This document shows positions 22,600-28,479 of a DNA stretch of 33,559 bases, in pieces (position 1 is the stretch's first letter; each line of letters starts with the position of its first letter). The notes under the pieces are model-generated. The model did not search any database. It saw only the letters and a program-made list of their open reading frames with translations, and was not told the origin of the DNA. This stretch comes from Sulfurimonas sp. (GTDB taxonomy: Bacteria > Campylobacterota > Campylobacteria > Campylobacterales > Sulfurimonadaceae): positions 1 through 33,559 of the forward strand of contig JAERRX010000084.1 of the NCBI GenBank assembly GCA_016735225.1, in the 5' to 3' direction. Both the position numbers and the translations under genes were made by a program.

Positions 22600-22613
22600 T
22601 TGATATATATCAA
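22600..22613. promoter_or_regulatory. Perfect FNR/CRP-family palindrome
   Basis: TTGATATATATCAA is an exact TTGAT-N4-ATCAA. It lies between the lipoprotein gene (minus) and the 62-aa membrane protein (plus). On the plus side TAAAAT at 22625-22630 is too close for class II activation, and the start would be near 22637; on the minus side TATTAT at 22582-22577 gives a spacing of about -36. So its direction is unclear, and repression of the plus gene is possible. Confidence 0.65.
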
Positions 22614-22647: not shown

Positions 22648-22836
22648 ATGCAAGACTTAGTGACGATACTCGTAATGACTCTTCCGATGTTGCTTTTTAG
22701 TATCTATCCAGGGCTTAAACTAGGCGATTATCTCGAAGAAAAATACAATATAAAAGAAGCTACAAAACGGAAGGTAATCACAATAACAACCATTGTTTTT
22801 ACACTAACACTCTCATCTTTACTTCATTACCTATAA
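22648..22836 (+). CDS. 62-aa membrane protein of unknown function
   Basis: A small protein with two hydrophobic helices (about 3-22 and 44-61) joined by a charged segment (LEEKYNIKEATKRK). AAAGG lies 9 nt before the ATG. It comes right after a perfect FNR-like site and shares its neighbourhood with nor and nir genes, so it may belong to the same regulon. No family recognised. Confidence 0.6.
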   Translation: MQDLVTILVMTLPMLLFSIYPGLKLGDYLEEKYNIKEATKRKVITITTIVFTLTLSSLLHYL

Positions 22837-22906: not shown

Positions 22907-22948
22907 TTGATATAAATCAACTAGCTTTAACCTAAATAGGAATAAAAT
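22907..22948 (+). promoter_or_regulatory. FNR/CRP-family site with -10 box for the nor/nir operon
   Basis: TTGATATAAATCAA (22907-22920) is an exact TTGAT-N4-ATCAA. TAAAAT at 22943-22948 puts the transcript start near 22955, so the site is centred at -41.5, the classic class II position. This is the best regulatory site of the window and should switch on the genes 22991-25759 under low oxygen or NO, depending on which FNR/CRP-family protein the organism has. Confidence 0.75.
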
Positions 22949-22990: not shown

Positions 22991-23317
22991 ATGATTGATG
23001 AAGTTGTCATGAGACAAGATATTCCCATAGATGATTTTTTACCTATTTTTGTCTCTTCTGCACTTGTTATGGTATTTGGAGGATTCTATGTTGGTATATA
23101 TACCGCTGTAAAAGTTAATCTTTTAAAAAAATGGACTATGTTAATCGCATATATATTTTGGATATTAACTGCCTATTGTTTATATTTAATGGGAAGCTTA
23201 ATGATGGTAGGTCAATTTACAGCGAAAGCTTTAGTAGTTGCAGGGATAGGATTGTTTCTTCTTCCTCATGCAGTTTATTATATGCAGCATCAAGTTCACG
23301 AAGAGAATGAGCATTGA
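22991..23317 (+). CDS. 108-aa membrane protein at the head of the nor/nir operon
   Basis: The protein has three hydrophobic segments (about 16-36, 46-72 and 75-96) and a His-rich tail (PHAVYYMQHQVHEENEH). AAGGAG lies 7 nt before the ATG, the best ribosome binding site in the cluster. No CXXCH is present, so it is not NorC. I do not recognise the family. Its stop TGA at 23315-23317 meets the norB fragment, where the sequence seems to have been joined by deletion. Confidence 0.65.
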   Translation: MIDEVVMRQDIPIDDFLPIFVSSALVMVFGGFYVGIYTAVKVNLLKKWTMLIAYIFWILTAYCLYLMGSLMMVGQFTAKALVVAGIGLFLLPHAVYYMQHQVHEENEH

Positions 23318-23328
23318 TATACTGTGTT

Positions 23329-23892
23329 ATGTATGACTGGGGTAAACAACAAGGTAGAGAGGCAGCTTCTGGAAGTACTAAGTCAGTTGTAAATAACCAG
23401 CCTGCTTTTGTATGGTTTTGGATGAATGCATTTGGAAACTTTTTGGGTGCTGGTGTTTGGGGATTTTTCCATACACTACCACAAGTAAACCTTTATACAC
23501 ACGGTACACAGTTTACATCAGCTCACGGACACCTTGCGTTCTTTGGTGCTTATGCGACTATTCTTATCGGTATGATGTATATCGCTGTTCAAGGAACAAA
23601 CGGTATTAAAGTTTTAAAACATACTTTATCTTCTATCTTAGCACTTAGCATGATAGTTGGTGGTGTTATGGGTATGACTATGGCACTTACTATTGCTGGA
23701 TATGTTCAAGTTCTTGTTTCTCGTGCTCAGATGGGTGCAACATGGGCAGGTTTCTTTGATGGACAAAACGGTATGTGGTTTGCACAAGCCATGGATTGGA
23801 GGCTAGTTATGGGATTTGTTACATTTGCAGGTTTCTTATTTTTAGCTAAAGATTTACTAAGTACTGGCAAAAGCCAAGTACATACAAGATAA
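23329..23892 (+). pseudogene. norB: C-terminal fragment of NO reductase subunit B (norB)
   Basis: The 187-residue frame matches only the last four helices of NorB: FVWFWMNAFGNFLGAGVWGFFHTLPQVNLYTHGTQ, then TSAHGHLAFFGAYA with the two His that bind heme b3 and heme b, then two more helices. The usual 450-aa protein has about eight helices before this, with the FeB ligands (His, Glu, His-His) and the other heme ligand; all are missing. No ribosome binding site precedes the ATG at 23329; a TTG at 23314 overlaps the upstream stop. norC is also absent. The likely event is a deletion that took norC and most of norB. The retained part has no internal stop, so the loss is recent or the peptide still has some use. 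Confidence 0.8.
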
Positions 23893-23902
23893 GGAGATAT
23901 AG

Positions 23903-24055
23903 ATGTTTGAACCTTTTACAGATGTTGTACCAAGTTTTTTTGGTATGCTAAACCAAGGTCCCTTAACTCTTACGCTTTTTCTTCACACTATTATAGTGCT
24001 TCCAATGATTTGGATCTATATACAAGAGAAAAAACGTTTAGAGAGTGAAAGTTAG
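23903..24055 (+). CDS. 50-aa single-helix membrane protein
   Basis: It starts with FEPFTDVVPSFFGML, has one hydrophobic segment (about 19-40) and ends in a charged QEKKRLESES tail. AAGGAG lies 5 nt before the start. It lies 10 nt after the norB fragment and is likely cotranscribed. A short membrane protein in this place could be a nor or nir accessory subunit; I do not know the family. Confidence 0.6.
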   Translation: MFEPFTDVVPSFFGMLNQGPLTLTLFLHTIIVLPMIWIYIQEKKRLESES

Positions 24056-24118: not shown

Positions 24119-25759
24119 ATGAGATTAAATAAATTAGTTATGTCAGCTACTGCTTTTGCAGTAGTTAGTTCGGGTCTATTTGCTGGAACATCCAACATGG
24201 ATGTTAAAAAAGTTTTTGAAAAAGAGTGTCAAGGTTGTCATGGTCCAAATCATGAAGGTGGAGTTGGTTCTGATCTGCGCCCTGATATTATTTCAAAAAA
24301 GAACTCTTATACACTTTCGGAAGCCATTTTAAATGGTATTCCTGGTACAGCGATGCCAGAGTTTAAAGAAAAGTTTTCTAAAGGTGATGCTGATAAAATG
24401 GTTGACTATCTTCAACATTTTAAAGGTGAAAAGATGGTTGTTCTTACGATGGACGCTGTTAAGGCTGGATGGAAACCTTTAAATGATAGAATGAAATTTT
24501 TCAAAGCATATCCACATGCTGCAGATGTTAAGAAAAATACAGATATCTGTTTTGTAACAGAAAGAGATGCGGAAAGAGTTGCATTTGTTGATGGTACTTC
24601 GGGTAAGATTTTATCTAAGCACCCTGCTGGTTTTGCTGTTCATGTTACAGTAACAAACAAGCGTCAACCTCGTTATGCTTACTCTATCTCTCGTTCAGGT
24701 TTAGTAACAATGTTTGACCTTAACACTCCGGGTCAGCAAAAAATTGCTCAAATCCAAGTGGGTTCTGACTCTCGTGGTCTTGCAGTTTCTCCAGATGGTA
24801 AGTATCTAATGGCAGGAAACTATGTTCCAGGTGGAGCAATCCTAATGGATGCTATGACTCTTGAGCCATTAAGAGTATATCCTACATCAAGCGTTATTGA
24901 CACCGAAGGTAATATCGGTTCATCTCGTGTAGCTGGTATTTTTGATACTCCTTATGGTCCATATATTGCATTTGCACTTAAAGATGCTGGTCATGTTTAT
25001 ATAGTAGATTATTCTAAACCTAACTTTCCTATCGTTGGAGATATTCCAAATATTGGTAAAATTCTTCATGATGGTTTCTTAAATGAAGGTAAAGAGATTG
25101 GTAGATACCTATTTATCGCTTCTCAAGGTTCTGATGTTATCGGTGTAGTTGATTTTAAAACTAAGTCTTTAGTTACTAAAATCTACACAGGTCCTTCGGC
25201 TAAACCACATCCAGGTCAAGGTTCTTCATTTTACAATGAACACTTAGGACAACAACTTGGTGCTACAGTAAACATGAATCTTGGACAAGTTACTATCTGG
25301 GATGATAACTTTGATGTAATCCGTCAGATTCCTACAGCTGGTGGTGGTCTATTTATCGGTACATCAGAGCATACTCCTTTTCTTTGGGCTGATAATGTTC
25401 TTGGTGGATCTGCTAACTGGAATAAAGTTCACTTGATCAACAAACAAACTTTAGAACTAGACAGAATCATCACTGTCGGTACTACAAAAGGTACTGTAAC
25501 TGATCCTGTTACTCACAAAACTTTATATAGCTGGAAAGTTCCAACTGTTAAAGATGCTAAAGGTAAAGCTATTACTCCTAGAATCTTACATGCGGAGCCA
25601 GCAAATCACGGTCACTGGACTATGATTTCTGAGTGGAATGCGGGTCGTATCGGTATCTATGAAGCCGAAACTGGTAAATTTGTTAAATATATAAAAGGTT
25701 TAACAACTCCTACTTTTACATACTCTATCGAACACAGACAAACTATTCCAGGTGCTTAA
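24119..25759 (+). CDS. nirS: Cytochrome cd1 nitrite reductase (NirS type)
   Basis: NirS reduces nitrite to NO in the periplasm. The 546-aa product has a signal peptide (1-22, cut near FAG), a heme c domain with CQGCH (37-41) and GTAMPEFKEKFS, and an eight-bladed d1 propeller. GFAVH (H175) fits the proximal d1 ligand and KPHPGQG (H364) the first active-site His. The second active-site His of NirS lies in FIKTHPxS; here the matching stretch is FIGTSEHTPFLWAD, with His418 two places later and Ser at the usual position. HAEPANHGHW (491-500) also differs from the common PEYNKxGDEVW. The protein could be a divergent NirS or a NirN-like relative; its length and operon place favour NirS. The start has AAGGAAG. 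Confidence 0.8.
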   Translation: MRLNKLVMSATAFAVVSSGLFAGTSNMDVKKVFEKECQGCHGPNHEGGVGSDLRPDIISKKNSYTLSEAILNGIPGTAMPEFKEKFSKGDADKMVDYLQHFKGEKMVVLTMDAVKAGWKPLNDRMKFFKAYPHAADVKKNTDICFVTERDAERVAFVDGTSGKILSKHPAGFAVHVTVTNKRQPRYAYSISRSGLVTMFDLNTPGQQKIAQIQVGSDSRGLAVSPDGKYLMAGNYVPGGAILMDAMTLEPLRVYPTSSVIDTEGNIGSSRVAGIFDTPYGPYIAFALKDAGHVYIVDYSKPNFPIVGDIPNIGKILHDGFLNEGKEIGRYLFIASQGSDVIGVVDFKTKSLVTKIYTGPSAKPHPGQGSSFYNEHLGQQLGATVNMNLGQVTIWDDNFDVIRQIPTAGGGLFIGTSEHTPFLWADNVLGGSANWNKVHLINKQTLELDRIITVGTTKGTVTDPVTHKTLYSWKVPTVKDAKGKAITPRILHAEPANHGHWTMISEWNAGRIGIYEAETGKFVKYIKGLTTPTFTYSIEHRQTIPGA

Positions 25760-25774
25760 TAGCATCTAAGTCAA

Positions 25775-25790
25775 TTCCCCTTTCGGGGAA
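25775..25790 (+). terminator. Hairpin after nirS
   Basis: TTCCCC-TTTC-GGGGAA, a perfect 6-bp GC-rich stem 15 nt after the nirS stop. No T run follows, so termination may be factor-aided or the hairpin may protect the 3' end. Confidence 0.6.
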
Positions 25791-25855
25791 ACGACTCAAT
25801 CCTCATATATCACTGCAAGCTTCACAACACTCAACTATTTCTATCTAAATTTTTA

Positions 25856-25946
25856 TATAATATGATATAATAAATTTATCTATAACATGAGAAATATGGA
25901 AAGAAAAGGTTAAGTTAAGTTTTCTTCCCTAAATTGGGTCTGACCC
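25856..25946 (+). promoter_or_regulatory. Tandem -10 boxes and REP-like palindrome upstream of glnD
   Basis: The 206-bp gap 25760-25965 contains TATAAT at 25856-25861 and again at 25866-25871, good candidates for the glnD promoter. GGGTCTGACCC (25936-25946) is a perfect palindrome of the REP-like type, about 20 nt before the glnD start, so it lies in the leader of the transcript. Confidence 0.5.
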
Positions 25947-25965
25947 CCTCCCTAAAGGCATTATC

Positions 25966-28479
25966 TTGGATATACTACTGCAAATAGAAGACATTATAGA
26001 AAAAAATGGTTCTGATTTTGAGCTTTCTAAGCTTTTTAAAACTTATATCAAAGAATACAAAAACTCTTTGCCACAACTCTTTGAAAACTCTCAAGGAAAA
26101 GATTTTTTAGTTAAGCATACAAAAAAACTAGATTCTGTTATCTCTTTAATGTATAAAGTTACCCTAAGAAGAGTTTTTGGAAACTACCTTCCTATGAGAG
26201 GCTCTATTCCTATTGCAATCATTGCCCTTGGAAGTTATGGAAGGGAGCAACTTTGTGTTCATAGCGATATAGACCTGCTTGTAGCTTATGAAGAAGTTGA
26301 TGGGTTTAACACCCAGTTGATAATAGAAAAGCTATTTTATTTGGCTCTGGATGCTGGTCTAAAACTAGGGCATAGAGTCCATGAAACAGGCGATCTATTT
26401 AAGGCATCCAATGAAGATGTGACTATAAAAACTTCTTTAATGGAGTCTCGCCTAATTGCAGGCTCAGCATTTACTTGGCACTCAACTCAAAAAGAACTCA
26501 CAAAAATAAGACTTTTTGAGCAAAAAGAGTTTATCTTAGCAAAAGTAAAAGAGGCTCAAATAAGACGCAAAAAATATCCAAACTCTATGCAACCAAACAT
26601 AAAAGAGAGTGTTGGTGGACTAAGAGATACTCAACTTTTAACTTGGGTGGCTCATACTATATATGGCATAGGAAACTTAAAAGATTTGACACAAAAACTT
26701 TTTTCCGAAGAGCAGTATAAAGAGTACAGGGTTGCTCTTGAGCTTCTTTACCGCATAAGAAGTGCACTTCATCTCATCGCAAACAAGCAAGAAGATAGGC
26801 TTATACTAGAGCATATGCCTCAAGTTGCAAAGATGCTAGGCTTTAAAACAGAACTAAAAATGCTTACAAAAGTTCTTCATGCCCAGTGGCAAATAAGTAA
26901 TTTCACACAAATTTTTGTTAAAAAAATGTTAAATCCATACATAGCAGATATGAGCTATGTAAGAAAATTAAGAAACAATAGGCTAAGCAGGGGTATCTAT
27001 CTTTTTGATGATAGACTTTGTGCATCTTATAAGCTTCAAACTCAAGGTATTAACGATATTTTAAATATACTCATAGCACTACCTGACAAGTTTTATCACT
27101 TTGATGCTGGGTTTTTAAACCAACTCACAAAGACAAAGATACCATACCCTATATCAAACACAACTTATATTCTTTTAAAAGAGCTTCTTAAAAAAGAGCA
27201 TATTTACAGCTTCTTAAAAATCTTTTGGGATGCTGGCATCTTGCATCTACTCTTTTCAAGTTTTAGAAAAGTTCTTCATCTTCCTCAGTTTGATGGGTAC
27301 CATCACTACCCTGTAGATATTCACTCTATCAAGGCAGTCCAAGCGTTAGAAAATATAAAAGAACCATTGATACAACAATTACATAATGAGCTATCTATAG
27401 ATGAGAAGCTTTTAGTAAAAATTGTTGTACTTATCCATGATACAGGAAAAGGCAGAAAACAAGACCATTGTGAAGTTGCTGCAAAACTCATAATGCCATT
27501 TGCCACAAAACTCCAACTTAGTGAAGAGTTGATAGAGCGTGCTGTTTTACTGGTTAAAAATCATGTTTTAATGAGCAATATTGCTTTTAAAGAAAATATT
27601 CACAATGAGAAAACTTTATATAAATTTATGTCAAGTATAAAAGATAGCAAAAATCTAAAACTGCTTTACATACTAACCTATGCGGATATAAATGGTGTAA
27701 GTAAAACCACCTACAACTCATTTAACTCAAAACTACTTTTAGACCTATATATAAGTGCTTTAGAAATCTCTCAAAATAGTGATAGAATTACAGATGCCTC
27801 TAAAAGAGCTATTATAGAAAAAAGAGTGAAAAACTCTAAAGAGTTTCAAGAACTACCAAGAGTGCTAAAAACAAAACTACTTCGTGTTGAATCAAATCTA
27901 TTTTTCTTTAAACATAGCATACTTGACCTTGTCAAAATTGCAAAAAAGGCTAAAGAAACTTCAGATTATTCCTATAGTATTGATGGAGACAACTCTCTAA
28001 GTATTGAGATATATAGAAGAGTTCCTCTAAATGTTAGCTATTTATTGGCTACCCTTAGTCATCTAAATGTTGCATCTATGGAGATTTTTACACTCTTTGA
28101 TGATCTCAAATATTTTAAAATAGAGTTTATAAAAAATGTAGATGGGGATGAACTTACAGAAGTTGAAGAGTTAGTAAAACAAGCTTTCGATATGAGCAGA
28201 ATAGTACAGCTAAAAGAGATAAGTCTAAGTAAAAAAGAGATCAAAATTGATACTCAGCACTCACTAACACATGCAGAGATAAGTATCAACACCAAAAATC
28301 AAATCGGTTTACTCGCTTATATAATGGATATGTTTGAAAAGCTAGAGATCAACATAGTAACAGCCAAAATCCACTCAACAAAACGCAAGGTAAGAGATAG
28401 CTTTTTAATAGAAAAACAAAACAATATATGTCATAATATCGATAAAATTTATGAATTATTAACTCAGGAGTCAAAATAA
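25966..28479 (+). CDS. glnD: Protein-PII uridylyltransferase/uridylyl-removing enzyme
   Basis: GlnD adds and removes UMP on PII proteins in response to glutamine, setting nitrogen control. The 837-aa protein has the nucleotidyltransferase motif ALGSYGREQLCVHSDIDLL (87-105), the GlnD connector, an HD domain (VVLIHDTGKGRKQDHCEVA) and two ACT domains at the C-terminus (about 680-740 and 765-830). The start is TTG at 25966, with AAAGG 7 nt upstream; no ATG fits as well. A REP-like palindrome lies 20 nt before it. The stop overlaps the glmS start (TAATG). Confidence 0.92.
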   Translation: MDILLQIEDIIEKNGSDFELSKLFKTYIKEYKNSLPQLFENSQGKDFLVKHTKKLDSVISLMYKVTLRRVFGNYLPMRGSIPIAIIALGSYGREQLCVHSDIDLLVAYEEVDGFNTQLIIEKLFYLALDAGLKLGHRVHETGDLFKASNEDVTIKTSLMESRLIAGSAFTWHSTQKELTKIRLFEQKEFILAKVKEAQIRRKKYPNSMQPNIKESVGGLRDTQLLTWVAHTIYGIGNLKDLTQKLFSEEQYKEYRVALELLYRIRSALHLIANKQEDRLILEHMPQVAKMLGFKTELKMLTKVLHAQWQISNFTQIFVKKMLNPYIADMSYVRKLRNNRLSRGIYLFDDRLCASYKLQTQGINDILNILIALPDKFYHFDAGFLNQLTKTKIPYPISNTTYILLKELLKKEHIYSFLKIFWDAGILHLLFSSFRKVLHLPQFDGYHHYPVDIHSIKAVQALENIKEPLIQQLHNELSIDEKLLVKIVVLIHDTGKGRKQDHCEVAAKLIMPFATKLQLSEELIERAVLLVKNHVLMSNIAFKENIHNEKTLYKFMSSIKDSKNLKLLYILTYADINGVSKTTYNSFNSKLLLDLYISALEISQNSDRITDASKRAIIEKRVKNSKEFQELPRVLKTKLLRVESNLFFFKHSILDLVKIAKKAKETSDYSYSIDGDNSLSIEIYRRVPLNVSYLLATLSHLNVASMEIFTLFDDLKYFKIEFIKNVDGDELTEVEELVKQAFDMSRIVQLKEISLSKKEIKIDTQHSLTHAEISINTKNQIGLLAYIMDMFEKLEINIVTAKIHSTKRKVRDSFLIEKQNNICHNIDKIYELLTQESK

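Follow-up and report, generated by a model that had tools for sequence, protein, structure and literature searches.

The nirS locus of a draft Sulfurimonas genome probably carries a young deletion of about 1.58 kb in an otherwise standard Sulfurimonas nir-nor operon. The stretch of DNA that was analysed, here called the window, is one whole contig (C50) of 33,559 bp from a MAG that comprises 190 contigs and 1.92 Mb and is 81.9% complete, with about 18% of the genome missing. The assignment to Sulfurimonas follows from its named relatives. Genes, FNR-type boxes and the hairpin located below by window coordinates lie on the + strand. The closest relatives, G136 and G135, are both single-contig genomes, to which the window is 93-94% identical in nirS and 94% identical in p108, the gene of a 108-aa membrane protein. 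This explanation is supported by the same gene order in all intact relatives, by a norB truncation that is the only internal one in 135 genomes, by a clean and repeat-free join relative to G136 and G135, by the absence of another norC or norB start from the MAG, by the retained FNR-type box, and by the loss of norCB at the same place in other lineages. It is weakened by the almost undecayed relic, since a very young deletion looks like an assembly or amplification chimera.

The starting point would have been a standard operon consisting of an FNR-type box, p108, norC, norB, a 50-aa gene and nirS, from which illegitimate recombination would have removed the 1.58 kb, with one end of the deletion in the spacer just past the p108 stop and the other after about 290 codons of norB. 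The promoter, p108, the 50-aa gene and nirS would thereby have been left intact, the norB tail would be a non-functional relic, and a separate second event would have parted nirS from the d1-haem genes. A nir-nor locus in the course of being dismantled is the better description, and the deletion is possibly a stage in the loss of denitrification.

The reference for this comparison is the nir-linked, cNOR-type norCB operon of Sulfurimonas, as found in G136, G135 and Sulfurimonas indica NW8N (L064). The order p108, norC, norB, 50-aa gene, nirS, with both norC and norB present, holds in 36 of the 40 distinct nirS loci for which sufficient upstream DNA was available, and in the usual order of the relatives p108 is itself preceded by p62, which encodes a conserved small membrane protein of 62 aa. 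The relatives' NorC proteins measure 177-192 aa, and their intact NorB proteins 474-488 aa. The window shares with this operon the promoter box, p108, the 50-aa gene, nirS, the C-terminal part of norB and the gene order, whereas norC, the spacer and about 290 N-terminal norB codons are missing and nirC-nirJ-nirF-nirE do not follow downstream. As a side observation, the placement of p108 and the 50-aa gene on either side of norCB is conserved across the genus and recurs in further families of the order.

The upstream part of the window locus is well preserved. A perfect FNR-type palindrome, TTGATATATATCAA (22600-22613), lies upstream of p62 (22648-22836), at a distance similar to that in several close relatives, and orthologues 49-89% identical to p62 are found upstream of p108 in many relatives. 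A second FNR-type palindrome, TTGATATAAATCAA (22907-22920), occupies the operon promoter region. In 21 of 21 relatives examined, an FNR-type box is located at -82 to -90 from p108, a conserved position in line with the FNR control proposed in the preliminary description of this DNA. The p108 gene (22991-23317) is intact and of normal length, 72-94% identical to same-genus orthologues over its full length; its product has no Pfam or NCBIfam match and belongs to no known family. A fusion of p108 with norB was considered and rejected, p108 having its own stop and normal length. The preliminary description, in which the 108-aa gene ended exactly at the join, needs amending in this respect: the stop codon (23315-23317) does adjoin the join but lies 5-8 bases before it, p108 is not part of the truncation, and nothing is joined in frame.

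A comparison with intact norCB loci, which that description had proposed, gave a clean gap relative to G136 and G135. The missing 1577-1580 bp correspond to the p108-norC spacer, norC and about 290 norB codons, and they provide the defined breakpoint of a relic formed by deletion. The join lies within 23318-23328, most likely at 23322-23326; the left flank matches the spacer after the p108 stop up to about 23322-23325, and the right flank matches norB starting at about 23325. The two flanks overlap by about one base at most, so a repeat does not account for the join. An artefact of assembly or amplification, or a deletion variant carried by a minority of a mixed population whose dominant genome has an intact norCB, is an unlikely origin of this join, if one to be taken seriously. 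The fragmented and incomplete draft, the intact norCB that is the genus norm and the undecayed state of the norB relic speak for it, and suspicion is raised by two breaks around a single nirS in a 190-contig MAG, the second of them right after the gene. Against it, the join lacks any repeat that might have misled an assembler, so that simple repeat collapse becomes less likely, other contigs hold no leftover norC or norB start, and other genomes show similar losses at the same place with decayed relics that cannot stem from this assembly. The deletion presumably exists in the cells and not merely in the assembly.

What is left of norB are its last 188 codons, about four helices (23326-23892). 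The open frame (23314-23892, 192 aa, its first few codons being spacer after p108) aligns only to residues 281-477 of an intact Sulfurimonas NorB of 477 aa and matches only positions 305-422 of Pfam COX1; a complete cNOR subunit, by comparison, has twelve helices and about 460-490 aa. Against the cytochrome c-dependent NorBC of P. aeruginosa (PDB 3o0r), residues 28-147 of the tail align on 304-426, around H347 and H349. These ligands of haem b3 and haem b are retained in the tail as HGH (AHGHLAFFGAY), whereas the low-spin haem ligand H60, the FeB-site residues H207, H258, H259 and E211, and E280 all lie upstream of the join and are gone; an intact relative carries all six. With HGH kept but the FeB ligands lost, the 188-codon tail, judged by its residues, cannot be an NO reductase. 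A PF00115 or norB match is accordingly no proof of an NO reductase, as the window tail still passes Pfam's cut-off. NorC, the partner in P. aeruginosa NorBC, is likewise missing: no norC match was found in the window, nor at E<=1 in the whole MAG. The preliminary description had been right on these points, namely a NorB reduced to its last four helices, HGH kept with all FeB-site residues lost, and an absent norC.

Neither norC nor the start of norB occurs elsewhere in the MAG, and a norB merely split across contigs was rejected for this reason; p108, nirS and the norB tail each occur once. In a genus-wide search of 135 genomes, with truncation judged from coordinates and contig ends checked for some, the window is alone in having a norB cut short within a contig; the remaining short norB matches lie at or near contig ends or are split over contigs. 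The reading of the 188-aa tail as a functional short haem protein of a new type can practically be dismissed. It has an open frame, the conserved HGH and a low dN/dS, but the low dN/dS is a legacy of the intact ancestor, none of the other metal ligands is left, no such stand-alone form exists in the other genomes of the 135, and the only start context of its own is a TTG overlapping the p108 stop.

The tail shows no sign of the relaxed constraint expected of a gene relic, its dN/dS and conserved sites resembling those of intact genes. Its dN/dS against G136 and G135 is 0.14-0.18, compared with 0.146 for the intact pair G136 and G135, and a single change was found among 97 columns invariant in 28 other sequences. 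Of the codon changes in the tail that could be polarised to the window branch, 3 are non-synonymous and 7 synonymous; in a rough model with assumed rates, the chance of at most 3 non-synonymous changes out of 10 is 0.0035 if the tail had been free of constraint for the whole branch and 0.034 if for half of it. Since the tail shows no decay, an old pseudogene was rejected. The deletion is either young, unfixed or artefactual, and it spans no more than a small fraction of the branch. In p108 and the 50-aa gene taken together, non-synonymous and synonymous changes number 9 and 7 on the window branch and 1 and 7 on those of the two relatives; this excess of non-synonymous change is a hint only (Fisher p 0.08).

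Downstream of the relic, the conserved 50-aa gene (23903-24055) is 54-90% identical to its counterparts in relatives. The following nirS (24119-25759) encodes an intact cytochrome cd1 nitrite reductase of 546 aa (PF02239, 200.8 bits, plus a cytochrome c domain) that is 94% identical to that of G136, with a dN/dS of about 0.09. After nirS, the window retains a conserved terminator-like hairpin, TTCCCCTTTCGGGGAA (25775-25790), similar to the one after nirS in G136 and G135, and then departs from the relatives. Of the 32 distinct loci in which sequence extends for at least 4 kb past nirS, 30 have nirJ within 4.5 kb downstream of nirS, the genes usually running nirC, nirJ, nirF, nirE. Only the window and the divergent nirS locus L062 depart from this. 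In G136 this d1-haem block comprises a cytochrome c, a NirJ-type radical SAM protein (best match TIGR04051, with a score below the curated cut-off), a cytochrome d1 domain protein and a uroporphyrinogen-III methyltransferase. In its place, beyond a second breakpoint region (25791-25965), the window has an 837-aa open frame (25966-28479), which we take from a reading of its sequence to be glnD-like; the gene is unrelated to denitrification and absent near nirS in every fetched relative. The breakpoint region contains a palindrome, GGGTCTGACCCC, at 25936, of which one other copy was found in 0.42 Mb of the MAG, with no transposase beside it. This palindrome is the only sign of a possible mobile-element cause of the second break.

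Of a nirS denitrification module, the window therefore has the cd1 nitrite reductase and none of nirE, nirF and nirJ. NirS may lack its d1-haem cofactor, because nirC-nirJ-nirF-nirE are gone from the locus. This bears on the possibility of an NO-terminal denitrifier, in which NirS would make NO from nitrite and the cell would export or tolerate it. The intact nirS under purifying selection is consistent with such a cell, as is a MAG in which no haem-copper NO reductase, Hcp or globin was found (Hcp was absent from all nine genomes searched). Accumulating NO is toxic, however, which we count against this explanation, and the genes required for d1 haem are absent where they would usually lie. 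They were also not seen in about 1.0 Mb (52%) of the MAG, a weak argument, as recA, eno and other neighbours of the block in G136 are likewise absent there. Altogether we consider an NO-terminal denitrifier very unlikely. The evidence does not lead to the earlier conclusion of NO release without a reductase, since the d1-haem genes too are gone from the locus and no clade II nosZ was recognised in the MAG. Of the three options named in the preliminary description, another NO reductase, NO export and misassembly, NO export has the weakest support, since displacement or loss has affected the cofactor genes too. Clade II nosZ is present in 7 of the 9 genomes and was not found in the MAG of the window or in G019. 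Our results suggest a lineage that is losing denitrification, with no nosZ found either, rather than one exporting NO.

A real loss could also be offset by another NO reductase, either a second canonical cNOR or a flavodiiron enzyme, encoded in the portion of the genome that the assembly lacks, and denitrification would then still work. Three genomes make this conceivable, as G012, G083 and G123 have nirS without adjacent norCB and a canonical-looking cNOR elsewhere, and about 18% of the genome is missing from the MAG. The search for another norB or norZ that the preliminary description had called for yielded no second haem-copper NO reductase, cNOR or qNOR, in the 82%-complete MAG. The only NorB of G136 and of G135 is the nir-linked one, and the lack of a recognised nosZ in the MAG likewise argues against working denitrification. 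We regard a compensating enzyme as rather improbable. The second PF00115 protein of the MAG was rejected as an NO reductase, being a CcoN beside ccoO/ccoP-like genes.

The loss of norCB beside nirS is not confined to the window; it has occurred separately in several other Sulfurimonas lineages, two of them with relics. In G019 (93% complete), broken pieces of p108 lie directly before an intact nirS, without norB (L043, 5868-6130), and in G114 (84% complete), a piece of p108 and a piece of the 50-aa gene precede an intact nirS, again without norB (L081, 4005-4248). On the nirS tree, the six cases, namely the window, G019, G114, G083, G123 and G012, amount to six losses, at least four of which are forced by well-supported branches.

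Partial denitrification as such is well known. The window resembles partial denitrifiers with nirS and without nor in that nirS is kept and the NO reductase lost, as do G019 and G114; it differs from such denitrifiers in that the relic shows the loss in progress and the d1-haem genes are detached too. A literature search on nirS without norB in Sulfurimonas yielded nothing on this locus. The pattern in Sulfurimonas is unusual because nirS has been reported to co-occur with nor almost always (Graf et al. 2014, PMC4250227). Against such reported rarity of NO reductase loss with an intact nirS, several independent losses were found in one genus, one of them with an undecayed relic, and these parallel losses in related species make the deletion of an ordinary operon mildly interesting. 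A broader proposal, covering the lineages of the window, G019 and G114, would be that Sulfurimonas repeatedly loses norCB while keeping nirS under an FNR-type promoter, the lineages ending at NO or using NirS non-respiratorily; we consider it doubtful at best. The strains with independent losses offer natural material for asking what nirS without nor amounts to: the release of NO, cross-feeding, or a nitrite reductase that stays silent.

Three further observations concern the relatives. Some genomes of the genus carry a second canonical-looking cNOR, among them ones that lack the nir-linked norCB; its NorB is about 40% identical to the nir-linked NorB and is accompanied by NorC, for example in G012 (L045, 4604-6426) and G009 (L046). 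Stops or frameshifts interrupt norB and nirS in G004 (L031, 555-5095) and nirS in G111 (G111:C199, 1666-2993), reflecting either decay or sequencing error. In G136 (L092, 4220-5704) and G135 (L093, 12712-14226), the gene after nirE combines a flavodiiron-type ODP domain (PF19583) with a histidine kinase (HisKA/HATPase_c) and adjoins a response-regulator-like gene; the product is a possible sensor of NO or O2 at the nir locus.
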